From Terriglobia bacterium (GTDB taxonomy: Bacteria; Acidobacteriota; Vicinamibacteria; Vicinamibacterales; CAVVIG01), in the NCBI GenBank assembly GCA_020073005.1, contig JAIQFX010000002.1, forward strand, positions 1 to 64,000: DNA of 64,000 nucleotides, in the 5' to 3' direction. Positions 32,169 to 64,000 of this stretch are shown one piece after another. The stretch's first letter is position 1; every line of letters begins with the position of its first letter. Below the pieces are notes generated by a model. It saw only the letters and a list, made by a program, of their open reading frames with translations, had not been told where the DNA came from and made no database searches. Both the position numbers and the translations under genes were made by a program.

Positions 32169-32171
32169 GGT

Positions 32172-32213
32172 GAGTCGCGAGTCGGGAGTCGGGAGTCGGG
32201 AGTCGGGAGTCTA
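32172..32213. repeat. 7-base tandem repeat between wzm and wzt
   Basis: Six units of GAGTCGG or close variants (GAGTCGC, four GAGTCGG, GAGTCTA) occupy the only sizeable gap in this part of the operon. The last unit runs into the wzm stop codon (TAG, 32211-32213). The unit shares the 9-mer GGGAGTCGG with the arms of the palindromes found further right. Confidence 0.9.
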
Positions 32214-43102: not shown

Positions 43103-43145
43103 CGATCAGCCGTCAGCTGTCCGCTGACAGCTGAAAGCCGAAAGC
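43103..43145. repeat. 7-base tandem repeat between clpX and lon
   Basis: From the clpX stop to five bases before the lon ATG: GTCAGCT GTCCGCT GACAGCT GAAAGCC GAAAGCT, period 7 with drift. The run shows local complementarity (CAGCTG). No separate ribosome-binding site is obvious. Confidence 0.75.
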
Positions 43146-43150
43146 TCCCT

Positions 43151-50103: not shown

Positions 50104-52742
50104 AGGACTTCCATCTCCGTGTCCTCCGTGGTGGCGATCTTCGTCTGTCCCATCAGATTGAGGATCCGCAGCGCCGCGGCCTTCGCCAGCGGACCGGTGT
50201 TCCCCGCCGGCCCCACGCAGCCCGGGCATCCGTTCTCGCACTCGCAGTCGGCGATCAGCTGGCGCGTCTTCGCGAGCAGCTCGCCGTGCATCTCGTACAG
50301 CGGCGCGCTGAAGCCGATGCCGCCGGGATAGTTGTCGTAGATGTAGATGGAGGGGACGGGAGTCGGAAATGGGGGGACGGGAGTCGGCATTGACGGCGTA
50401 CCGACTCCCGTCCCCCCTCTCCCGACTCCCGTCCCCTCGTCATTAATCGCGATGCCGATGTCGTGGCCGTCGCACATCAGCAGCAGCTGCGCGATCTGCT
50501 TCAGCGCGTACGCCAGGCCGACGATCCCGTCGCGGCGATCGTCGGGTGCGAACGGCAGCGCGCCCATGACGCTCGCCGGCACCGTCAGCCAGTACGACGT
50601 CGTGTGCATCTGCTGCTCGGGCAGATCGAGCTCGCCCGACCCGACGTTCTCGTTCGTGTAGAACTTGATCTTCTTGAAGCCGACGACGCGCGAGACAACG
50701 TGGACCTCGCCGTGCGATCGTACGGGGACGGGAGTCGGCTGGCCGGACTCGCCGACTCCCGTCCCCGTCTGAAACGTATCAATCGGCGTGACCTTGTTGT
50801 ACGTGATCGCGTCCGTGTAGTAATCGCAATCGATCTCGCGGACGTACGCCTTGCGCCCTTCGAAGTCGAGCTTCTCGACCTGATACAGCGTGCCTTCGAC
50901 GATGTAGATCGCCTTCGGGTGTAGCGTGGCCGGGCCGCTCGTGAAATCGGTCTCGCCGATCACGCGCGTTTCGTGCGTCGTATCGACGATCACGAAGTTG
51001 TCCGACGACACCGACCGCAGGCTGACGGCGTCCGCGGGATACGACTCGCTGGTCCAATGCCACAGGGGACGGGAGTCGGCGTCCGACCCTTCCGACTCCC
51101 GTCCCCTTGACACGAGCCCCTGCTCGGCGAGGACGCCGAGGATCTCCTGCACGTCGTGCCTGCCGAACGCCTCGTCCGTCGTCATCGGCAGCTCGAACGC
51201 CGCGCACTTCAGGTGATCGACGAGGATGTGCAGGTTGTCCGGATCGATCAGCGCGTGCTCCGGCGACGCGTCGAAGAAGTACGACGGGTTCCTGACGACG
51301 AACTGATCGAGCGGCGCGCTGCTCGCCACCATGACCGCCGCGGAGCGGCTCGCCCGCCGTCCCGCGCGCCCGGCGCGCTGCCACGTCGACGCAATCGTGC
51401 CCGGATAGCCCGCCATCACGCTGACGTCGAGCGCGCCGATGTCGATGCCGAGCTCGAGCGCGTTCGTCGAGACCACCGCGCGGACGACGCCGTCGCGCAG
51501 GCCCTTCTCGATCTCGCGCCGCCGCAGCGGCAGATAGCCGCCGCGATAGCCGCGGATCGATGGGGACGGGTCTCCGTTCGCCGCTCCACCGGAGACCCGT
51601 CCCCATACGTTCTCGAAATCTTCCTTCAAGTACGTGGTCAGGATTTCCGTCGTCAGGCGGCTGCGCGCGAACACGATCAGCTGCAGATTGCGCTTGAGAA
51701 ATTCCGCCGCGATGCGGCGCGTCTCGCTCAGGTACGACCGGCGGATGCCGAGCTGCTGGTTGACGACCGGCGGGTTCACGAAGACGAAGAACTTCTCGCC
51801 GCGCGGCGCGCCGCTCTTCTCCACCAGCTCGAACGGCTGCCCGGTCAGCCGCTCGGCGAGCTCGCGCGGGTTCGCGATCGTCGCCGATGAGCAGAGGAAG
51901 ACGGGATTCGATCCGTAGTGCCGGCAGATGCGGCGCAGCCGCCGCAGCACGTTGGCGAGATGGCTGCCGAAGACACCGCGGTACGCGTGCAGCTCGTCGA
52001 TGACGACGTACTTCAGGTTCTCGAAGAGCTTCGCCCAGCGCGGATGGTGCGGCAGGATGCCGGAGTGCACCATGTCCGGATTGCTGAGGACGAGATGCGC
52101 GCGCGATCGGATCGTGCGGCGCGCGTCCTGCGGCGTGTCGCCGTCGTAGGTGAAGACGCCGATCTGGGGGGACGGGTTATCCGGGGACGGGTCTCGGTTG
52201 GTGTTGGCTCCGAGACCCGTCCCCGGCGTCCCCGTCCCCCCAATCTGCTCGCACATCGCCTGCAGCTCGGCGAGCTGATCCTGCGCGAGCGCTTTCGTCG
52301 GAAACAGGTACAGCGCGCGGCTCGACGGATCCTGGAGAATCGCATGCAGGATCGGCGCGTTGTAGCAGAGCGTCTTGCCCGACGCCGTCGGCGTGATGAC
52401 GACGACGTTGCGTCCGGCGAGCGCGTGATCGATCGCTTCGGCCTGATGCGTGTAGAGCTGCGGGACGCCGCGCGCGGCCAGCGCGTCCTTGAGGCGCGCG
52501 TCGAGCGCGTCCGGGAACGGCGCGTACCGCGCGGTGACCGCTTCGAGCCGGCGCACGGCGGTGACGTGAAGGTCGGGAGTGTCGGGGCGAGGGGGACGGG
52601 TCTCGGCGTCTATCTGCTCCGAGACCCGTCCCCCTAACCGGCCGAGCGCCTGGTCGAGGGCGCTGTCGCGAGAGGGGGACGGGTCTCGGGTCGGGAGATC
52701 GCCGAGACCCGTCCCCCTTTTCACGAGATTGCCCCCAGCCAT
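50100..52742 (-). CDS. mrfA: MrfA/YprA-like DEAD/DEAH-box DNA repair helicase carrying seven repeat insertions
   Basis: 880 residues. Helicase motifs: LYTHQAEAI (Q), VVVITPTASGKTLCYN (I), VVIDELHAYRG (II, DELH), LCSSATIANP (III), FARSRLTTEIL, TNALELGIDIGALDVSVMAG and QRAGRAGRR (VI). The C-terminal DUF1998 zinc cluster is CECENGCPGCVGPAG. MrfA of B. subtilis is about 750 residues; the seven palindromic insertions add roughly 125, explaining the excess. It unwinds DNA 3'-5' for crosslink repair with MrfB, encoded just downstream. The first two palindromes lie near the N-terminus, so a later start (GTG before RRLEAV) would put them in the leader. Confidence 0.9.
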   Translation of the reverse strand: MAGGNLVKRGTGLGDLPTRDPSPSRDSALDQALGRLGGRVSEQIDAETRPPRPDTPDLHVTAVRRLEAVTARYAPFPDALDARLKDALAARGVPQLYTHQAEAIDHALAGRNVVVITPTASGKTLCYNAPILHAILQDPSSRALYLFPTKALAQDQLAELQAMCEQIGGTGTPGTGLGANTNRDPSPDNPSPQIGVFTYDGDTPQDARRTIRSRAHLVLSNPDMVHSGILPHHPRWAKLFENLKYVVIDELHAYRGVFGSHLANVLRRLRRICRHYGSNPVFLCSSATIANPRELAERLTGQPFELVEKSGAPRGEKFFVFVNPPVVNQQLGIRRSYLSETRRIAAEFLKRNLQLIVFARSRLTTEILTTYLKEDFENVWGRVSGGAANGDPSPSIRGYRGGYLPLRRREIEKGLRDGVVRAVVSTNALELGIDIGALDVSVMAGYPGTIASTWQRAGRAGRRASRSAAVMVASSAPLDQFVVRNPSYFFDASPEHALIDPDNLHILVDHLKCAAFELPMTTDEAFGRHDVQEILGVLAEQGLVSRGRESEGSDADSRPLWHWTSESYPADAVSLRSVSSDNFVIVDTTHETRVIGETDFTSGPATLHPKAIYIVEGTLYQVEKLDFEGRKAYVREIDCDYYTDAITYNKVTPIDTFQTGTGVGESGQPTPVPVRSHGEVHVVSRVVGFKKIKFYTNENVGSGELDLPEQQMHTTSYWLTVPASVMGALPFAPDDRRDGIVGLAYALKQIAQLLLMCDGHDIGIAINDEGTGVGRGGTGVGTPSMPTPVPPFPTPVPSIYIYDNYPGGIGFSAPLYEMHGELLAKTRQLIADCECENGCPGCVGPAGNTGPLAKAAALRILNLMGQTKIATTEDTEMEVL
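50352..50436. repeat. Nested double palindrome inside mrfA
   Basis: Two left arms GGGGACGGGAGTCGG (50352-50366 and 50373-50387) are answered by two right arms CCGACTCCCGTCCCC (50401-50415 and 50422-50436). One hairpin sits inside the other, as if an element had inserted into or duplicated within another. It is read in frame as GTGVGRGGTGVG and PTPVPPFPTPVPS. Confidence 0.92.
50724..50766. repeat. Palindromic element inside mrfA
   Basis: Perfect 16-base arms GGGGACGGGAGTCGGC / GCCGACTCCCGTCCCC with an 11-base loop. Translated GTGVGESGQPTPVPV in the helicase frame. Confidence 0.92.
51065..51106. repeat. Palindromic element inside mrfA
   Basis: 15-base arms GGGGACGGGAGTCGG / CCGACTCCCGTCCCC, 42 bases in all. 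Translated GRESEGSDADSRPL, a different frame from its neighbours. Confidence 0.92.
51562..51604. repeat. Palindromic element inside mrfA
   Basis: 14-base arms GGGGACGGGTCTCC / GGAGACCCGTCCCC (TCTC variant). Translated GRVSGGAANGDPSPS; left and right arms are read in different frames of the arm. Confidence 0.9.
52166..52241. repeat. Nested palindrome inside mrfA
   Basis: An inner hairpin with arms GGGGACGGGTCTCGG / CCGAGACCCGTCCCC (52183-52224) is enclosed by outer arms GGGGGGACGGG / CCCGTCCCCCC. Translated GTGTPGTGLG and NRDPSPDNPSPQ, in frame between helicase motifs I and II. Confidence 0.9.
52591..52634. repeat. Palindromic element near the mrfA 5' end
   Basis: 16-base arms GGGGGACGGGTCTCGG / CCGAGACCCGTCCCCC, 44 bases. 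Translated GRVSEQIDAETRPPR if the upstream ATG is used. Confidence 0.9.
52674..52717. repeat. Palindromic element at the mrfA start
   Basis: 16-base arms GGGGGACGGGTCTCGG / CCGAGACCCGTCCCCC, 44 bases, only 25 bases after the ATG. Translated GTGLGDLPTRDPSP. It could instead form a hairpin in the mRNA leader if translation starts later. Confidence 0.9.
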
Positions 52743-55920: not shown

Positions 55921-56757
55921 TCAGACGCGGTGATCGAGGAAGCTCGCGAGGGCCTCGTTGAACGCGTCCGGCCTCTCCATGTTCGGCATGTGGCCCGCGC
56001 CGGCGATGACCTCGAGCTGGGACCCGGCGATCTCACGGTGCAGGTCCTCGGCCATCGACGGCGGCGTCAGCGCATCTTCAGCGCCGACGACGACCAGCGT
56101 CGGCACGTGGATGGACGCCAGCAGCGGCGTCGCATCCGGCCGCGTCATCAGCGCGTTGATGGCGCCGCCGATCACCTCGGCTGAATTCGCCATGATGATC
56201 GCGCGCAGCTGGTCGGCGACTCCCGGTCTCGTGCGCCTGCTCGTTTCGCCGATCAGCTTCGGAATCATCTGGTCGGCGATCGCCGCCGGTCCCTGATCTT
56301 TCAACAACTGCAGCATCTTCTTCCGGCCTTCGACGCCCTCGGGCGTGTCGGCCTGCGACCGCGTGTCCGCGAGGATCAGTCCGCGCACGTAGCGCGCGGC
56401 GTGACGGCAGACGGCGAACGTCACGTAGCCGCCCATCGAGACGCCGCCGACGACCGCGCCCTCGATGTGCAACCCGTCGAGGAGATCGATCACCTCGGCG
56501 GCGTAATCGTCGATGGTCGGGTCCGGCTGAAGCCGGACACCACTGTTTCCAGACGTGGCGTCCGCCTTCAGGCGGACCAGACTCGTTCCGAGGTCCGGCG
56601 CGATGACGCGCCAGCCGCGCGCGGCGGCGAACTCGAGCTGCCCTTCCCACATCCGCGAGTTGAGCGGGAAGCCGTGAATCAACAGGAGCGTCCCGCGAGG
56701 ACGCGCGTTCGCGCCCGGAAGCGCGTCGAGGTAGCGGAGTCGGCCGAGTGTGGGCAC
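55921..56757 (-). CDS. Alpha/beta hydrolase with an in-frame repeat insertion
   Basis: 278 residues. LLLIHGFPLNSRMWEGQ is the oxyanion region, the nucleophile elbow is GGVSMGGYVTF, the acid is in VVGAEDALTPP and the His in IAGAGHMPNMERP. It resembles lactonase/esterase members such as 3-oxoadipate enol-lactonase; the substrate is unknown. Between DLGT and IDDY, where a lid loop normally sits, the segment SLVRLKADATSGNSGVRLQPDPT is encoded by a double hairpin repeat. Its stop lies 11 bases before the SDR start. Confidence 0.88.
   Translation of the reverse strand: MPTLGRLRYLDALPGANARPRGTLLLIHGFPLNSRMWEGQLEFAAARGWRVIAPDLGTSLVRLKADATSGNSGVRLQPDPTIDDYAAEVIDLLDGLHIEGAVVGGVSMGGYVTFAVCRHAARYVRGLILADTRSQADTPEGVEGRKKMLQLLKDQGPAAIADQMIPKLIGETSRRTRPGVADQLRAIIMANSAEVIGGAINALMTRPDATPLLASIHVPTLVVVGAEDALTPPSMAEDLHREIAGSQLEVIAGAGHMPNMERPDAFNEALASFLDHRV
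56521..56577. repeat. Double hairpin repeat inside the alpha/beta hydrolase gene
   Basis: Two hairpins GTCCGGCTGAAGCCGGAC (56521-56538) and GTCCGCCTTCAGGCGGAC (56560-56577) are separated by 21 bases. Translated VRLKADAT...VRLQPDPT, in frame. The peptide VRLKAD is one I recall as widespread in Acidobacteriota proteins; this was not searched. Confidence 0.85.
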
Positions 56758-56760
56758 GGC

Positions 56761-57969
56761 TTATTGTCTGCGAAGCGCGGCCGCGAGCGCCATGCTGCCC
56801 GTCACGTTCGCCGTCGTGCGGAACATGTCGGGGATGGTGTCGACGGCGAGCAGGATGCCGATGCCGTCGATGGGCAGGTTCACCGCGGCGAGCACCGGCA
56901 CCATCGCGATGACGCTGCCGCCGGGAATGCCCGGCACGGCGAACGTCGCGAGGATCGCCGTGAAGTACATCGTCGCGAGCATCGCGGGCGGGAGCGTGAC
57001 GCCGTACAGCCGCGCGAGAAACAGCACGCCGACCGTCTGCGCGACCGCCGCGCCGGCACGGAACACGGACGCCGCGAGCGGCAGGACGAAGCCGGACACC
57101 ACTTGCGGCATGTCCGCGCGCTCGGCGCTTTCCACCATCGCCGGCAGCGCCGCGAGCGAGGATCGCGAGGCGAACGCGACGGCCTGCGCCGGCGCGCAGA
57201 ACGCGACGAACGCCGAGGGCGGCATGCGTCCCGCGAGAACGCCGAACGGATACAGCAGCAGGACGCCGACCGCGACGGTCAGCGACACGACGAGCACGAT
57301 ATAGACGAGGACCGCGCCCGCCGCGCCGAGGCCGAGCTTCGATGCGAGCGGCACGGCGAGCGCGAAGACGCCGACGGGCGCGAGCTCCAGAATCCACGCG
57401 ACGAGCCGCTGCATCGCGTCGGCCACGCCCTGGACCGCGCGCAGCACGGCGTCACGCCGCTGCTCCGCCACGCGTGCCAGCGCGAGGCCGAAGAGCACCG
57501 AGAACAGGATGATGGGCAGCATCGCGCCGTCCACGCCCGCCTTGACGATGTTCTGCGGGACGAGGTCCACGAACCACTGCGCGAGCGTCGGCGCGCTGGA
57601 CGAAACGCCGGCGACCGGACCGCGCAGTGCCAGCGCCGCCGCTTGATCGATCTGCACGCGCGCGAGCACCGGCACGGCGACGGCGACGCTGATGGCGCCG
57701 GCGATCGCGAGCAGCACAACGGCGATTCCGACGGCGCGCGCGCCGACGCGGCCGAGCGCACCGGACGCACCGAGCGATCCTGCGCTGGCGATCAGCATCG
57801 ACGCGACGAGCGGAATCACCGTCATCCGGATCAGGTTGACGAAGATCGTCCCGACCGGCGCGAGAAACGCGTTGATGGGCGCCGAGACGGAAGGTGAAGC
57901 GCCGGCCAGTGCCAGGCCGAGCAGAAAGCCCGCAACGAGGCCGATGAGCACGCGGGTGGTGAGCGACAT
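56761..57969 (-). CDS. Dicarboxylate/amino acid:cation symporter (DAACS family)
   Basis: 402 residues, about eight hydrophobic helices plus two hairpins. It opens TTRVLIGLVAGFLLGLAL and FVNLIRMTVIPLVASMLI, the DctA/GltP signature. SSLAALPAMVE (serine-rich motif) and GIPGGSVIAMVPVLAAVNLPIDGIGILLAVDTIPDMFRTTANVTG are the substrate and cation sites. It likely drives uptake of glutamate or C4-dicarboxylate with Na+ or H+. It is three bases from the hydrolase, first gene of the minus-strand operon. Confidence 0.94.
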   Translation of the reverse strand: MSLTTRVLIGLVAGFLLGLALAGASPSVSAPINAFLAPVGTIFVNLIRMTVIPLVASMLIASAGSLGASGALGRVGARAVGIAVVLLAIAGAISVAVAVPVLARVQIDQAAALALRGPVAGVSSSAPTLAQWFVDLVPQNIVKAGVDGAMLPIILFSVLFGLALARVAEQRRDAVLRAVQGVADAMQRLVAWILELAPVGVFALAVPLASKLGLGAAGAVLVYIVLVVSLTVAVGVLLLYPFGVLAGRMPPSAFVAFCAPAQAVAFASRSSLAALPAMVESAERADMPQVVSGFVLPLAASVFRAGAAVAQTVGVLFLARLYGVTLPPAMLATMYFTAILATFAVPGIPGGSVIAMVPVLAAVNLPIDGIGILLAVDTIPDMFRTTANVTGSMALAAALRRQ

Positions 57970-57983
57970 ACACTGAAAACTTG

Positions 57984-58004
57984 GAAGTTAGAACTTAGAA
58001 CTTC
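57984..58004. repeat. 7-base tandem repeat upstream of the symporter gene
   Basis: GAAGTTA GAACTTA GAACTTC, period 7. It starts 14 bases from the symporter ATG, in its leader. Confidence 0.7.
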
Positions 58005-58041
58005 AGAGCGGAAACGCCAAGCGCAAAGTTCAGACGGGTTC

Positions 58042-58069
58042 CAGTTCTCAGTTTTCAGTTTTCTCTTTC
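58042..58069. repeat. 7-base tandem repeat covering a remnant gene's end
   Basis: CAGTTCT CAGTTTT CAGTTTT CTCTTTC, period 7. The stop of the remnant gene (58048-58050) lies inside it, so its last residues (VKEKTEN) are encoded by the array. Confidence 0.75.
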
Positions 58070-58334
58070 ACGTTTATCAACAACCAGATCGAAGCGATCA
58101 GGAGCAACGGCGCCGTCGTCGCGCCTGGCGCCCAGCGGCCGAGATACACGGAGCCCGCGAGGTGCCCGATCCCGTTGAGCAGCATGATCGCGGCGAACGG
58201 GTACGCGACGATGCGCGTGAAGAGGGCGCCGCGGTACGCGAGCGGCGCCAGCAGCAGAAGGACGATCACACGTGCGCCGCGAGCACCAGCGTGAGCGCGA
58301 CCCAGGCGTGTCCGAACGATCGCGGCTGCGTCAT
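58048..58334 (-). pseudogene. Frameshifted small membrane protein remnant
   Basis: Reading from ATG 58334 gives MTQPRSFGHAWVALTLVLAAHV then TGA. Reading from GTG 58269 gives a 73-residue part (IVLLLLAPLAYRG... GHLAGSVYLGRWAPG). The two halves meet at GTGTGATC, and deletion of one GT would join them into about 95 residues with two or three membrane helices. The C-terminal part resembles acidobacterial HXXEE-type membrane proteins, but the HxxEE centre is absent, so an internal deletion is also likely. Confidence 0.5.
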
Positions 58335-58341
58335 GGGCGTG

Positions 58342-58378
58342 AAAAACAAACGGGCCGGACGACGAAGCGCCCGGCCCG
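58342..58378 (-). terminator. Rho-independent terminator downstream of the DinB-like gene
   Basis: Minus-strand stem CGGGCCGG/CCGGCCCG with a 12-base loop followed by TTTGTTTTT. It sits two bases beyond the tandem repeat that follows the DinB-like stop. Its design nearly repeats in the terminator at 63685. Confidence 0.85.
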
Positions 58379-58380
58379 AC

Positions 58381-58410
58381 TCATGACTAACGACCAATGA
58401 CCAACGACTA
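58381..58410. repeat. 7-base tandem repeat flush with the DinB-like stop
   Basis: TCATGAC TAACGAC CAATGAC CAACGAC TA, period 7, on the plus strand. The last bases form the complement of the stop codon (58408-58410). The same unit family recurs at 63717. Confidence 0.85.
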
Positions 58411-58989
58411 TCCGCGGCCTCTCATGCCCCTGCCCATGTTCTCGGTCGACGGCGGGACGATGTTCTTCGAGCGGAGGTAGACGTAGGCGGTGCCGGCCAT
58501 CTCGTTGCCGTGCACGAGGACGCCGTAGAGCGCCGCCGCGCGCGTCACTTCGTTCATCCCCTGCTTGACCATCTCGGTCGCGTTCGCGTCGGTCACGCCG
58601 GCGAAGAGGTCGTCGCACAGCGCGAACGAATCCGCGAGCGCCTTGGTGATCTCCGCTTTCGTCTTCAGCTCGTTCTCGAGGTTCTTACCCTGCATCGGGT
58701 TCGGCACGCCCTTGAGGCTCGAGCACTGGCCGAACTGCGACTGCGCGATGTGCGCGATGGCGGCGCCGAACGTGCGCGCCTCGGGCGTCGAGCCGGGCTT
58801 GAAGTTGTAGTCGGCGTCTGGCATCTTCGCCGCGGCCGCCGTGAAGTTCGTCTTGAACGTGGCGTACCCGCGCTGCAGGCTGGTGGCGAGCCCGATCTTC
58901 TGGCCCTGCATCTGCCCTCCCTGCGCGAAAGCAAATCCGGCGGCGAGCATGAGAGCGACGGCCGACACGGCGAACGTAAAGCGCTTCAT
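58408..58989 (-). CDS. Secreted DinB-like protein
   Basis: 193 residues with a signal peptide (MKRFTFAVSAVALMLAAGFAFAQ). The mature helical part (LQRGYATFKTNFTAAAAKMPDADYNFKPG, then ARTFGAAIAHIAQSQFGQC and ALYGVLVHGNEMAGTAYVYLRSKNIVPPSTE) follows the DinB/YfiT four-helix layout. DinB His ligands are only partly present: a His in IAHIAQ and one in VHGNEM. An SD-like GGAGTCTCAG precedes ATG 58989. Function unknown; exported DinB proteins are common in Acidobacteriota. Confidence 0.82.
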   Translation of the reverse strand: MKRFTFAVSAVALMLAAGFAFAQGGQMQGQKIGLATSLQRGYATFKTNFTAAAAKMPDADYNFKPGSTPEARTFGAAIAHIAQSQFGQCSSLKGVPNPMQGKNLENELKTKAEITKALADSFALCDDLFAGVTDANATEMVKQGMNEVTRAAALYGVLVHGNEMAGTAYVYLRSKNIVPPSTENMGRGMRGRG

Positions 58990-59082
58990 CTGAGACTCCT
59001 TGAAGAGGACCAACTGCAGCCGGGAATTATACTCCCTTGACCCTCACGCTACGTCAGGCCCGAGGACACCCCAGTGGACGAA

Positions 59083-59114
59083 TTGGGTAGTTGGGTAATT
59101 GGGTAGTTGGGTAA
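59083..59114. repeat. 8-base tandem repeat after an APC permease gene
   Basis: TTGGGTAG TTGGGTAA TTGGGTAG TTGGGTAA, four units of period 8, lying 8 bases beyond the permease stop. Confidence 0.85.
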
Positions 59115-59121
59115 TGGCGAT

Positions 59122-60471
59122 TCACACGCTCGGGGTTGCGTGCGCTGCTCGTGGCGTTGCTGGCCGCGGCCGCGCCGCAGCCCAGAGGTAGTACGCCGGC
59201 ACGCCGAGCGCGACCAGCGCGAGGCCGGCGGCGCTGTCGAGCGGTTCGGAGACGAGCCGGTTGACGACGATCGTCGCCGACGCGACGACGAAGATCGCCG
59301 GCACCCACGGGTAGCCCCACACGCGATACGCCGGCGCGTAGCCCGGCCGCTTGCGCAGCAGGAAGATCCCGCCGGCCATCATCGCGAAGAAGATCCACTC
59401 GGTGAAGATCACGCGCGTGAAGAGCTGCCGGTACGTGCCCGACCAGACGAGCACGGACGCCCAGACGGCCTGCAGCATGATCGCGCGGTGCGGCGTGTGG
59501 AAGCGCGGATGCGTCTCGCTCACCCACCGGAACAGCAGGCCGTCCTTCGCCATCGCGAAGTAGACGCGCGGCGCCGCGAGAATGCTGCCGGTCATCGCGC
59601 CGAACACCGAGAACATCACGAGTCCTGAAATCGCCGCTCCGCCCGGCGCGCCAAGGATCATCGTCGCCGCATCCGCGGCCACGCGCGTCGACTTCTCCAC
59701 GTGGGCGAGCGGCAGGATGTAGAAGTACACGGCGTTCAGCGCGACGTAGCACGCTGTGACGATGACGATGCCGAGCGCGAGCGCGCGGGGAATCGTCCGC
59801 TCGGGATTGATGGTCTCCTCGGCGGTGTACGTGACGACGTGCCAGCCGCCGAACGCGAAGAGTCCGGCGATGAGCGCGAGCAGAAAGTTCTGCGGCTGGA
59901 TCGCCGCTTCGGCGGCGCCCTGCTGAAAGTGCTCGGGCAGACGCGCGCCGACGGTGAAGCCGACGATCACGATCAGCCCGACGGCGAGCACCTTCCCGAT
60001 CGTGAAGGCGGTCTGCACCGTGCTGCTCCGCTTCACGCCGACGTAGTTCAGCGCCGAGATGCCGAGAATCGCGGACACGGCGACGGCGCGGATCCCGCGA
60101 TCGCCGAGCGGGACGAAGAACGCGGCATAGCGGCCGAAGACGGTCGCCATCGCGGCGATGATGCCCGAGTGCATCACCCAGAACATCGCCCAGCCCCACA
60201 GGAATCCGGCGACGGGCGAGTACGTTTCCTTCAGGAAGACGTAGACGCCGCCGGTCTTTGGAAACGCGGACGAGAGCTCGGCGCACGCGAGCGCGCCGAA
60301 GAGCGTGAGGACGCCGGAGACCGTCCACGCGAGGAGCACGGCCCAGATGCGCGGGACGTGCTCGGTCAGCTCCGACGCCTGGACGAAGACCGACGCGCCG
60401 AGAATCGTCCCCACGACGAGCGCGGTGGCATGGGGCAGACGAAGCGAGCGCGACAGGCCGGCATCAGCCAC
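59122..60471 (-). CDS. APC-family amino acid permease
   Basis: 449 residues, twelve hydrophobic helices. LPHATALVVGTILGASVFVQASELTEH is helix 1 in the LAT/APC group, LFAFGGWHVVTYTAEETINPERTIPRAL is helix 6 and its loop, and ILAAPRVYFAMAKDGLLFRW matches the paralogue at 53428. An Ala/Arg-Pro tail ends the protein. The substrate is unknown. Confidence 0.92.
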   Translation of the reverse strand: MADAGLSRSLRLPHATALVVGTILGASVFVQASELTEHVPRIWAVLLAWTVSGVLTLFGALACAELSSAFPKTGGVYVFLKETYSPVAGFLWGWAMFWVMHSGIIAAMATVFGRYAAFFVPLGDRGIRAVAVSAILGISALNYVGVKRSSTVQTAFTIGKVLAVGLIVIVGFTVGARLPEHFQQGAAEAAIQPQNFLLALIAGLFAFGGWHVVTYTAEETINPERTIPRALALGIVIVTACYVALNAVYFYILPLAHVEKSTRVAADAATMILGAPGGAAISGLVMFSVFGAMTGSILAAPRVYFAMAKDGLLFRWVSETHPRFHTPHRAIMLQAVWASVLVWSGTYRQLFTRVIFTEWIFFAMMAGGIFLLRKRPGYAPAYRVWGYPWVPAIFVVASATIVVNRLVSEPLDSAAGLALVALGVPAYYLWAAARPRPATPRAAHATPSV

Positions 60472-60502
60472 GGCGAGATGCTAGCAGAAGTGTGAAAGTC
60501 TG

Positions 60503-60530
60503 TGGCTGGTGGCTGGTGACTGGTGGCTGA
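60503..60530. repeat. 7-base tandem repeat between permease and amidohydrolase genes
   Basis: TGGCTGG TGGCTGG TGACTGG TGGCTGA, period 7. It lies in the leader of two divergent genes and shares its unit with the array at 36912. Confidence 0.85.
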
Positions 60531-60557
60531 CGGGCGCAGGCTGCGGAGCGCAGTAAA

Positions 60558-61574
60558 ATGCCCGCCATGAAGATCGACGTATTCAGCCACGTACTTCCGC
60601 CGCGCTACCTGGCGGAGCGCAACAAGCGCGCAGGCGAGCGGCTCTCGACGCAGTACGGCAAGTACTACCATGCCAATCCCGGCCTCACGGATCTCGACGT
60701 CCGCTTTCGCGCGATGGACAAATTCCCCGACGCCGTCCAGCTGCTGACGATCGCCGGCCCGAATCTCGAGAGCGTGCTCAAACCAAAGGATGCGGTGGAG
60801 TGCGCGAAGATCGCCAACGACGAGATGGCGGAGCTGGTCGCGAAGCATCCCGGCCGGTTCTGCGGCGCGTGCGCGAGTCTGCCGATGAACGACATCGACG
60901 CGGCACTGAAGGAAACCGACCGCGCGATCACGGATCTCCGTTTCCGCGGCGTCGAGATCTTCACCGATCACGACGGCCGGCCGGTCGACGCGCCCGAGAT
61001 CTTTCCGCTCTACGAGAAGATGGCGGCGTACAACCTGCCGATCCTGCTGCACCCGCGCCGGACGAACACGACCGCGGACTACGAAGGCGAGTCGACGTCG
61101 AAGTTTCTCATCTACACGAACTTCGGCTGGCCGTACGAAACGTCGATGGCGATGGCGCGTCTGGCGTTCGGCGGGCCGCTCGAGAAGTACCCGGCGCTGA
61201 AGATCGTCACGCATCATGCCGGCGGGATGATTCCCTACTTCCACAAGCGCGTGCAGTTCTCGTGGGACTTCAACGAGATGCGGATGGGCTACCGGTTCGA
61301 CGGCCACACGCTGACGAAGTCGCCGGTCGAGTATTACAAAATGTTCTACTGCGACACCGCGATCCAGGGGAACACGCCGGCACTGATGTGCGCCTACGAG
61401 TTCTTCGGCGGGGATCATATGGTGTTCGCGACCGACACGCCGTACGACAACCAGCTCGGCGAGCGCGTGATCCGCGAAACGATCGACGGCGTCGAGGCGA
61501 TGCCGATTGACGCGGCCGCGAAGAAGAAGATCTACGCCGACAACGCGCGCCGGTTGTTCCGGCTCCCAGTCTGA
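60558..61574 (+). CDS. Amidohydrolase-2 (ACMSD-like) family protein
   Basis: 338 residues, TIM-barrel metal-dependent family of aminocarboxymuconate-semialdehyde decarboxylase. It starts KIDVFSHVLPPRYLAER: the usual HxH has Phe for the first His. LPILLHPRRTN gives a His ligand, IVTHHAGGMIPYF a His pair, FATDTPYDNQLG the metal Asp. The missing first His suggests an altered metal site, as in other IDxFxH members. ATG 60558 or 60567 may be the start. It ends in a TGATG overlap with the next gene, so the two may form an operon. Reaction unknown. Confidence 0.88.
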   Translation: MPAMKIDVFSHVLPPRYLAERNKRAGERLSTQYGKYYHANPGLTDLDVRFRAMDKFPDAVQLLTIAGPNLESVLKPKDAVECAKIANDEMAELVAKHPGRFCGACASLPMNDIDAALKETDRAITDLRFRGVEIFTDHDGRPVDAPEIFPLYEKMAAYNLPILLHPRRTNTTADYEGESTSKFLIYTNFGWPYETSMAMARLAFGGPLEKYPALKIVTHHAGGMIPYFHKRVQFSWDFNEMRMGYRFDGHTLTKSPVEYYKMFYCDTAIQGNTPALMCAYEFFGGDHMVFATDTPYDNQLGERVIRETIDGVEAMPIDAAAKKKIYADNARRLFRLPV

Positions 61575-62830
61575 TGACGGCCAGCCCGAGCCGGCTCACA
61601 CGCGTGGCCTTCGGCCTCATCCCCGTGGCCGCCCTGCTCCTGTCTGCAGAGGCGGTCGTGCGGGTGAAGTATTTCGTGCAACACCACTACGAAACCGACT
61701 ACCTGACGACCCCGTTGTTGTTCCATGAATTCGGCACCGTCAGAGAGGACATCCGGAAGGTCCGCGGCGTCAGGGCGGAGACCACTCCCAAACCGTCATC
61801 GTCCTCGACGGCGGGCGCGAATGAAGCCGGCCCGGCGGCTGGCGGCGGAAGCGCCGCGCCGCAGGTCGGCGCCGGCGCCGCCGTCGAACCGATGGTCTTT
61901 CGCTGGCCGACGCCGTGCGTCAGCGGGCAGGTGTTCAGCGCCGAGCTGAACAGGCTGATGCCGAGGACCTGGGATGCCAATTGCTTCCGCGGCGATCGCG
62001 TGAGCCGGTCGAAGGAGGACGGCGAATTCCGGATCGTCTTCATCGGAGGCTCCACGGTGCAGGATTTCCAGTCCGACGACGAGATGATGACGGCGCAGTT
62101 CGGGAACGTCGTGAAGTCCGGCCGAACCGGGCGAGTCACGGTGCTGAACGCCGGCCGGAGCGGATTCAACAGCGCGAACATTCTCGAGGACTACACGAGC
62201 CGCGTCGGCGCGTTCCGGCCGGACGCGGTCCTCTACTACGAGGCGTGGAACGAACAGCCGCACGACCTCAAGCCGATGGCGAGAGCCGACGCAATGGTCC
62301 GCGCCTTCGGGAGCGCCGCGCACAAGGCCTTGCGCTACCGATCGATGCTCTACACCTATCTGATCGAGAAGTACGCCTTCCTGCAGGCCTCGAAGACCAA
62401 CTTCTTCAGGCTCGACGCGACGCAGGTGCGGCGGCCCTTTGCAGCGCTCGCGCAGACCGCGCGCGGCCAGGACGCCCGATTCGTGTTCGTGACGCAGGTG
62501 GTCAACTTTCCGCGGATGTGGAAGGGCGTCGACACGTACGATTACGAGGCGGTCGATCGCCTGCTCGTCCGCATGCAGGCGGACCCGCAATACGACTACG
62601 ACGTCCAGGAAATCAGCGCGCTGAACCAGCGTCTGACCGTGGCCTACACCGTCGCCTTGTGCCGCGAACTGGACGTGCCGGTCATCAACATCCTCGAGGC
62701 GGTGGAGGGCCTCGGCGCCGCGCAGCGCGCGGAGATGTTCATGGATCTGGGACATCTCACGGCCAAGGGCGATCGGATCGTCGGGAAGCTCATCGCCGAC
62801 GAATTCCTGGCCTTGCCGTCGCCGCGCTGA
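61574..62830 (+). CDS. SGNH-hydrolase-like membrane-anchored protein
   Basis: 418 residues. The N-terminus (RVAFGLIPVAALLLSAEAVVRVKYF) is a signal-anchor. A low-complexity Ala/Gly/Ser/Pro linker (about 78-108) follows. RIVFIGGSTVQDFQSDDEMM is block I with GGST in place of GDS. VLYYEAWNEQPHDL carries Asn, and the C-terminal MDLGHLTAKGDRIVGKLI supplies Asp/His. Related to the proteins at 13536 and 38665. The ATG shares one base with the amidohydrolase stop. Confidence 0.82.
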   Translation: MTASPSRLTRVAFGLIPVAALLLSAEAVVRVKYFVQHHYETDYLTTPLLFHEFGTVREDIRKVRGVRAETTPKPSSSSTAGANEAGPAAGGGSAAPQVGAGAAVEPMVFRWPTPCVSGQVFSAELNRLMPRTWDANCFRGDRVSRSKEDGEFRIVFIGGSTVQDFQSDDEMMTAQFGNVVKSGRTGRVTVLNAGRSGFNSANILEDYTSRVGAFRPDAVLYYEAWNEQPHDLKPMARADAMVRAFGSAAHKALRYRSMLYTYLIEKYAFLQASKTNFFRLDATQVRRPFAALAQTARGQDARFVFVTQVVNFPRMWKGVDTYDYEAVDRLLVRMQADPQYDYDVQEISALNQRLTVAYTVALCRELDVPVINILEAVEGLGAAQRAEMFMDLGHLTAKGDRIVGKLIADEFLALPSPR

Positions 62831-62837
62831 CGCGGCG

Positions 62838-63003
62838 CCTACGGCGCCCAGGCTTCGCGCGCGACGCGTGCGTCGTAGCTCTCGCCGTAGATCGACGGCA
62901 CCTTCGCGCCCATCGGACGGAGGTACATCGACAGCTGTCCGCGGTGATGGATCGAATGGTTCAACCCGAGTGACGCGTAGATGACCGCGGGGAACTGGAA
63001 GCG
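62838..63003 (-). pseudogene. C-terminal fragment of a DinB-family protein
   Basis: Minus-strand reading from about 63003 gives RFQFPAVIYASLGLNHSIHHRGQLSMYLRPMGAKVPSIYGESYD and ends EAWAP with TAG. NHSIHHRGQLSMYLR is the C-terminal metal-binding helix of DinB proteins. The 5' three quarters is missing; the reading runs into a repeat at 63001-63085. Confidence 0.75.
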
Positions 63004-63085
63004 CGAGGCTTTAGCCGAGCGTTTTCCCGCGACAGCGGTATCGCTCGCGGCGCCGCCATTCGGGCGCCGGGAAAGCGCGCTCCGG
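63001..63085. repeat. Inverted-repeat element at the junction of two gene fragments
   Basis: Contains GGCTTTAGCC (63007-63016) and imperfect long arms around AGCGTTTTCCCG and CGGGAAAGCGCGCT with a GC-rich centre. It translates as RENARLKPRASS, a peptide pattern I recall from Acidobacteriota repeat inserts. It separates two truncated genes. Confidence 0.65.
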
Positions 63086-63674
63086 GCTCCTGCTCAAGGA
63101 CCAGATGAATGAATTCTTCGCACTGCACGGGCACGCTTGCATCGAGTAGCGGGGCCGCGAAGGCGTCGCGATATCGCCTGTACGCATGATCGAGATCTCC
63201 CTCGTACGCACAGAGAAAGGCCTCGCCATACCGCCACGACCCGTCGTCGATATGTCTGCAGGCGTCATACTCTCTCCGCGCTTGGACCACGTCGCGGCGT
63301 AAGACCGTAGATGACGAAGTGGCAGTTCGTCTTGGCAGCCAGCCAGGAGACTTGGCCCTCTACGAACCGGCGGGCTAGTCGCGCGTCGAACTCCACAAAA
63401 TGAAACGTGTGCCTGAGTCTCTCTGAACCTTGGACAAGTTCGCGGAGCCGTGCCACAAAATACGCGGCAATGCCGTGAACCACCAGAGGCCTACGACAAC
63501 CGCCATCGAGGCAACGAAGAGAATCCACTGTCCAGTCGAAATCTTCGACAAATCAACGGACGTAAAAAGCCAAATCAGGAGGGCTGCAACAGTAGCGAGG
63601 ACCAGCAGGAGACCTTTCTTGGTACTCCATTGCGCCTCGACATCGGCGAACAGCTTTGCCAGGTCTTGTGCCAT
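63086..63674 (-). pseudogene. Frameshifted remnant of a one-helix-anchored protein
   Basis: Three reading frames succeed each other: MAQDLAKLFADVEAQWSTKKG with a two-helix hydrophobic part (LLLVLATVAALLIWLF, GQWILFVASMAVVVGLWWF) from ATG 63674; then YFVARLRELVQGSERLRHTFHFVEF to HFVIYGL; then REYDACRHIDDGSWRYGEAFLCAYEGD to FIHLVLEQEP. Each joins smoothly to the next if one or two bases are added or lost. The 5' part is less GC-rich than the surroundings. No function can be assigned. Confidence 0.65.
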
Positions 63675-63684
63675 GAGATTAATG

Positions 63685-63716
63685 AAAAAGGGCCGGACGC
63701 TGACGCGCCCGGCCCT
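63685..63716 (-). terminator. Rho-independent terminator of the ribonucleotide reductase gene
   Basis: Minus-strand stem AGGGCCGG/CCGGCCCT followed by TTTTT. It lies directly after the tandem repeat that follows the nrdJ stop. Its stem core (GGGCCGG) is the same as that of the terminator at 58342. Confidence 0.88.
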
Positions 63717-63757
63717 GACTAACGACTAAAGACCAACGACTAACGACTAACGACTAC
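63717..63757. repeat. 7-base tandem repeat between the nrdJ stop and its terminator
   Basis: Plus-strand GACTAAC GACTAAA GACCAAC GACTAAC GACTAAC GACTACT, period 7. It begins where the terminator stem ends and finishes at the nrdJ stop codon. Confidence 0.88.
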
Positions 63758-64000
63758 TTAGGCGCAACCCGACGTATTCCCGCAGTTCACGCACTTGTAG
63801 CACGCGCCGCTGCGGATCATGATCGCGCCGCAGGTCGAGCACGGCGGCGCGTCTTCCTGATTCTGAATCGTCGAATGCGGGTTCGCGTCGGTCGGCCTGA
63901 CCGCCGAAGCTGCCTGCTCAGATGCGGCAGCGGAGGCGGACGCAGGGCCGGCCGCGGAGGCGGTGGGCGTCAGCGTGTGCCCGTGCCCGTGCTCGTCCAG
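63758..64000 (-). CDS. nrdJ: C-terminus of adenosylcobalamin-dependent ribonucleotide reductase (partial)
   Basis: The last 80 codons are visible, ending CVNCGNTSGCA with TAA at 63758. CSTCGAIMIRSGACYKCVNCG is the zinc-ribbon/redox tail of class II (B12-dependent) ribonucleotide reductases, whose cysteines re-reduce the active site. An Ala/Ser/Gln-rich linker and a His/Gly stretch (DEHGHGHTLTPTAS) precede it. The catalytic barrel lies beyond the window. The enzyme makes deoxyribonucleotides without oxygen dependence. Confidence 0.85.
   Translation of the reverse strand: MDEHGHGHTLTPTASAAGPASASAAASEQAASAVRPTDANPHSTIQNQEDAPPCSTCGAIMIRSGACYKCVNCGNTSGCA

Follow-up and report, generated by a model that had tools for sequence, protein, structure and literature searches.

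Heterocystous cyanobacteria carry short tandemly repeated repetitive (STRR) sequences, several heptanucleotide families of which are dispersed in each genome. Calothrix is mentioned in connection with STRR heptad repeats (PMC4692102), and the same paper describes the GGGAATC / GGGGA(C/T)T repeats of Xanthomonas and Nostoc, which are mostly intergenic, lie near the ends of ORFs, are sparse between divergent genes and in some instances form inverted pairs at convergent genes, with similar positions and a length and sequence that vary among species (PMC4692102). The TAACTGA repeats of Beggiatoaceae, Cyanobacteria and Bacteroidetes are intergenic heptads in direct orientation that close every reading frame with a stop codon and may run into the 3' end of the preceding gene (PMC4679880). 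As summarized in the latter paper, Mrazek et al. 2007 found heptamers to be over-represented among the long simple sequence repeats of bacteria, and slippage was proposed as their source. Most earlier descriptions of bacterial heptameric repeats concern families built on a single unit, and a literature search for heptad repeats in Acidobacteriota found no paper that combined all the search terms.

The window analysed here is a stretch of 64,000 nucleotides from the genome of an uncultured acidobacterium (G000), and it contains two gene ends at which a heptad array separates the stop codon from a terminator-like hairpin. These ends were compared with the rest of the genome, with the sister species (G001), with a third congeneric genome (G002) and with a further relative (G012).

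Two gene ends with a common layout

The first of the two ends belongs to a gene for a DinB_2-superfamily protein (58411-58989, minus strand; 193 aa with an apparent signal peptide; PF12867, E=3.5e-9); this DinB-like gene is not that of DNA polymerase IV. Homologs are found in 37 of the 40 genomes searched, its own genome counted. The TAG stop codon (58408-58410, minus strand) provides the first three bases of a heptad array, TAGTCGTTGGTCATTGGTCGTTAGTCATGAGT (58379-58410), which is predicted to be unstructured (fold z = +0.56) and is followed on the same strand by a predicted intrinsic-terminator hairpin, CGGGCCGGGCGCTTCGTCGTCCGGCCCG (58351-58378; 11 pairs and a 6-nt loop by terminator scan and folding), and by a T-run, TTTGTTTTT (58342-58350). 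The module, which on the minus strand has the order stop codon, (TTRGTCG)n array, GGGCCGGGCG hairpin and T-run, folds at -25.1 kcal/mol (z -2.8 versus shuffles). An initial annotation had placed a stop codon, a TAACGAC-type array and a GGGCCGG-stem hairpin at 58342-58410, and these coordinates are correct, with the minus strand now made explicit.

The same order of stop codon, (TTRGTCG)n array, GGGCCGGGCG hairpin and T-run is found, again on the minus strand, after nrdJ, which encodes an adenosylcobalamin-dependent ribonucleotide reductase. The 3' end of nrdJ occupies 63758-64000 of the window, and the gene crosses the window end to reach 66721 on contig C119 (63758-66721); the matches that identify it (NF005122, 1388 bits, and TIGR02504) were scored on the part of the gene past the window end. 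Immediately 3' of the TAA stop codon (63758-63760) lies the array GTAGTCGTTAGTCGTTAGTCGTTGGTCTTTAGTCGTTAGTC (63717-63757), also predicted to be unstructured, followed by the predicted terminator hairpin AGGGCCGGGCGCGTCAGCGTCCGGCCCT (63689-63716; 12 pairs and a 4-nt loop by terminator scan and folding) and by the remainder (63685-63688) of a TTTTT T-run, and the module folds at -28.5 kcal/mol (z -5.5 versus shuffles). The likeness in order, unit and stem that had been pointed out between this end, at 63685-63760, and that of the DinB-like gene is borne out, and from GGGCCGG to CCGGCCC the two hairpins are identical at 23 of 26 bases, with mismatches in the loop region only, a common 10-nt arm and an identical G-U position. 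In 1.33 Mb of the genome there are 24 terminator-like hairpins in intergenic DNA, and no other two of these are as alike as this pair. Both hairpins are stable, GC-rich and short-looped, with a U-run right behind the stem (TTTGTTTTT at the DinB-like gene and TTTTT at nrdJ), and both would be expected to act as terminators. A search of 56000-64000 against Rfam gave nothing above gathering score.

Between the DinB terminator and the neighboring SDF symporter gene lies a small membrane-protein-like reading frame (58078-58336) that is apparently split by a frameshift and whose TGA stop sits inside a GAAAACT array; the sister species has no gene at this place. Two more heptad arrays, AACTTAG and CAGTTTT, are found upstream of the symporter gene (57981-58068). 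Positions 59081-59115 carry period-8 and period-16 arrays (TTGGGTAG/TTGGGTAA), of a kind also present elsewhere in intergenic DNA.

A genome-wide population of heptad arrays

Array statistics were gathered from 1.33 Mb of the 5.86 Mb of G000, partly picked for TAACGAC arrays, and from 0.98 Mb of G001. Genes were called with a home-made caller, and some of the arrays scored as coding probably lie within falsely called ORFs. A de novo scan of these 2.3 Mb identified 7 as the dominant period, with 156 intergenic period-7 arrays versus 0 in Markov-1 randomisations; periods 8 and 9 contributed 50 and 41 intergenic arrays, respectively, and periods 4-6 and 10 next to none. Tandem 7-nt units occur well beyond chance, and they are mostly non-coding (in G000, 0.028 per kb of coding versus 0.39-1.11 per kb of intergenic DNA). 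Two successive TAACGAC units, at a tolerance of 2 mismatches, match at 424 places over the whole G000 genome versus 34 for the reversed pattern, CAGCAAT, which is not a neutral control because the relatives G011, G016 and G017 use it abundantly as a heptad unit of their own (up to 275 matches). The units are many, and include TTRGTCG, GTGGCTG, AAAACTG, AAGGCAG, GAGTCGG, AATTAGG, AACCCTG, AAATCTG, CAATCCG and others, with ACCAGCC the commonest in both G000 and G001. The abundance of a given unit ranges across the family from 0 to several hundred matches; TAACGAC triplets number 328 in G000, 18 in G001 and 85 in G002, and CAGCCAC triplets number 288, 529 and 193, respectively.

Arrays are denser in convergent (1.35 per kb) and tandem (1.23 per kb) gaps than in divergent gaps (0.48 per kb; convergent versus divergent, p=0.0007). 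In tandem gaps, 39 of 85 arrays have their start between -18 and +12 relative to the stop of the preceding gene, where random placement would give 21.5 (p=0.0005), and at ends whose array starts no more than 40 nt from the stop, the stop codon lies inside the array in 35 of 85 instances in G000 and 16 of 47 in G001. One GAGTCGG array in the window (32170-32213) exactly fills the gap from a stop codon (32211) to the start of the next gene, both genes lying on the minus strand. Neighboring related arrays are arranged as 31 inverted versus 4 direct pairs, and many of the inverted pairs could, from their sequence, form hairpins, some of them around a terminator (for instance, G000:C106:48679-48797). 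The strand of the unit relative to the gene shows only a modest purine bias in tandem gaps (40:29 in G000 and 28:13 in G001), and was not used.

Unit turnover beside an inherited hairpin

At the ends of the DinB-like orthologs, the hairpin is recognisably alike in G000, G001, G002 and G012, and the two stem changes in G001 preserve pairing on a reading of the sequence. The arrays at these ends consist of TTRGTCG in G000, AAGTCTG in G001, TAGTCGG/TTAGTCG in G002 and TTGGAAT in G012. Judged by this comparison of orthologous ends, the DinB hairpin is inherited vertically at its own locus while the adjoining array changes unit. At nrdJ, the array of G001 is built of GTGGCTG and its hairpin is not that of G000; in other relatives the nrdJ ends have yet other units or no array. 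A side observation at the G001 gene (C12, 1857-1960) is that nrdJ is followed by two copies of a REP-like palindrome, GTAGGGCGGGTCCTTTCGGACCCGCC; because the second copy carries a T-run, the palindrome may serve as the nrdJ terminator in that species.

Turnover of the unit is also seen at other gene ends. In 135 G000-G001 ortholog pairs, nine ends in each genome bear an array and four are in common, versus about 0.6 expected by independent placement (p=0.001). The units were scored as different at all four shared ends by an automatic comparison of consensus heptamers that counts any non-exact match as different, and one of the four (G000:C171 gene 5 / G001:C1 gene 37) is a weaker case, with related AAAACTG/AAAAGTG-type units on inspection. 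An array can also be present in one species only where the adjoining flanks match closely (G000:C165 gene 38 versus G001:C3 gene 36). One of the four shared ends lies in the window, where the 48 nt separating clpX from lon (43103-43150) are filled by an inverted array pair, TCAGCTG / CAGCTGA (43106-43145); G001 has a TTTCAGA-type inverted pair there instead, with upstream proteins that are 99.5% identical between the two species. Turnover is not universal, as the AAGTTCT array adjoining the symporter start codon is retained between G000 and G001.

Where a G000 gene end has a recognisable terminator, an array is more often present (7 of 15) than where it has none (90 of 475; p=0.016), and the corresponding figures in G001 (2 of 9 versus 50 of 411) are not significantly different (p=0.31). 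Nine ends of the two genomes combined have both features; in seven of them the array lies ahead of the hairpin, and in the other two it forms part of the hairpin. Such enrichment could signal a functional link between array and terminator, and counts against a neutral account of the arrays. The GGGCCGGGCG stem with T5 is found at four places genome-wide, every one behind a heptad array, which likewise counts against such an account, and terminators with other stems also sit behind arrays of several units. The initial annotation had proposed a genome search for TAACGAC arrays beside GGGCCGG stems; a third locus, on C158 (8199-8363), has a TTRGTCG array as at the DinB-like gene and nrdJ, and the fourth GGGCCGGGCG hairpin, on C175, has a short GGGTTC-type array. 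Because the GGGCCGGGCG hairpins pair with three TTRGTCG arrays and one of GGGTTC type, the layout, as read from these sequences, is one that recurs while its parts combine freely. The GGGCCGG..CCGGCCC hairpin is not enriched, being found at 9 places genome-wide versus 8 for a reversed control, and the GGGCCGG stem was dropped as a repeat family.

Origin of the layout and its relation to known systems

Comparison of the sequences establishes the layout itself, the genome-wide arrays with their 3' bias and inverted pairing, the turnover of units at orthologous stops, and a DinB hairpin that is inherited with its locus. The probable explanation for this pattern is that two independent layers meet at the gene end, an ordinary inherited terminator and a slippage-grown, sequence-indifferent array whose presence in the 3' untranslated region does no harm. 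The first layer would be an intrinsic (Rho-independent) terminator, a GC-rich hairpin with a U-run, that passes down with its gene. The second would be a heptameric tandem array between stop codon and hairpin, one of the 7-bp arrays of various units found across the genome, that grows, shrinks and mutates, most likely by slippage, as has been proposed for heptamers elsewhere. Arrays would be nearly neutral and would persist where constraint is least, in 3' untranslated DNA from the stop codon or just past it, and, if their sequence is indifferent, an array of another unit could take over while the neighboring terminator stays.

The initial annotation had favored a mobile or homogenised transcript-end cassette, in which stop codon, array and hairpin are copied between genes as one piece. 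The close resemblance of the DinB and nrdJ hairpins, both behind (TTRGTCG)n, and the third locus with the same combination (C158:8199-8363) are consistent with such copying, which could have been local, as in several relatives a single contig carries nrdJ and the DinB-like gene no more than about 2 kb apart. Joint movement of array and hairpin is not what is seen, however, either at the DinB orthologs, where the hairpin is vertical and the array changes, or at C175, where a GGGCCGGGCG-type hairpin has a different unit; nrdJ of G001 differs in both parts, GGGCCGG..CCGGCCC hairpins are no commoner than their reversed control, and the outer flanks of the DinB and nrdJ modules have no similarity visible by eye. 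The orthologous hairpin with a swapped array and the nrdJ end of G001 largely refute cassette mobility as a general account, and we consider it quite unlikely. One event of local copying, from the DinB hairpin to nrdJ, is possible, because the two hairpins are similar and the genes are close neighbors in several relatives. A transposition origin of another kind, in which the arrays are REP-like elements mobilised by REP-associated tyrosine transposases (RAYT, Y1_Tnp), is suggested by their inverted pairing and 3' location, which recall REP/BIME elements, and by the presence of four Y1_Tnp genes in the genome (G000 C124, C106, C114 and C118). Those genes are flanked by REP-like palindromes of their own, such as TGTAGCGCGAGCCTTTCAGGCGAGCG and GGGGACGGGAGTCGG, and at none of the four loci by heptad arrays, on which ground RAYT mobilisation was rejected as exceedingly improbable. 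Copies of GGGGACGGGAGTCGG near 50347-50431 of the window may belong to the Y1_Tnp gene on C106.

Selection for a function could instead maintain the arrays. As a 3' untranslated spacer, an array of any unit might hold the last ribosome off the hairpin and add back-up stops in all frames, and the position of arrays between stop and hairpin, their predicted lack of structure, and a conservation of position but not of unit that exceeds chance (p=0.001) agree with such a role, as does the closure of all three frames within 28 nt by 21 of 84 arrays, versus 2.9 in composition shuffles. Any 7-nt unit with a stop in it will, however, yield stops in several frames as a matter of course, 25 of the 84 arrays (about 30%) have no stop in any frame, ACCAGCC contains none despite being the commonest unit in both genomes, and no recognisable terminator lies downstream of most TTRGTCG arrays in the genome or at 90 of the 97 G000 ends with an array of any unit. 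Back-up stop codons were rejected as the cause of the arrays, as many arrays contain none. Because most arrays lack a recognisable terminator and about 30% lack a stop in any frame, the arrays allow for a spacer role without calling for one, and as the main explanation it appears unlikely. It is far less likely still that the arrays have one sequence-specific role as binding sites or structural elements (protein-bound repeats or quadruplexes), as proposed for single-unit families of other bacteria (PMC4679880, PMC4692102), given that many different units fill like positions, in either orientation, both inside a single genome and across sister species. The reading in terms of two layers has a gap of its own, in that local slippage alone does not account for a species-specific vocabulary of units shared between loci, nor for inverted pairing. 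A tentative alternative, to which we assign a low probability, is that an active process writes 7-nt tandem arrays at gene 3' ends, often as inverted pairs round a short spacer and from a species-specific vocabulary, overwriting old units while the terminator stays.

Recurrence of the position with a change of unit beside an inherited terminator speaks against a role tied to any one unit, and the origin of 7-nt arrays, the reason for seven and the spread of a vocabulary become questions that comparisons of strains and relatives can test. The hairpins at the two gene ends match the intrinsic terminators of other bacteria in their GC-rich stem and following U-run, and the sole difference is the heptad array that separates stop codon from hairpin. 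STRR sequences resemble the arrays described here in having several heptad families per genome, in a different phylum. An over-represented 7-nt unit is shared with the heptamers of Mrazek et al. 2007, and relative to that work, as it is summarized in PMC4679880, the present genomes add many units per genome, a 3' bias, inverted pairing and turnover between sister species. The TAACTGA repeats are likewise intergenic heptads with stop codons and overlap with upstream gene ends (PMC4679880), but they have one unit and lie mostly just 5' of start codons, whereas here many units are biased toward stop codons. The GGGAATC / GGGGA(C/T)T repeats (PMC4692102) share the 7-nt unit, the intergenic location, the depletion in divergent gaps, the inverted pairs and the variation between species, but consist of one G-rich, quadruplex-capable unit, in contrast to the many units found here, mostly without G-tracts, and to their replacement as whole units. 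Against a background of mainly single-unit families, one genome here holds many units, and in two sister species the position recurs with a change of unit beside an inherited terminator.
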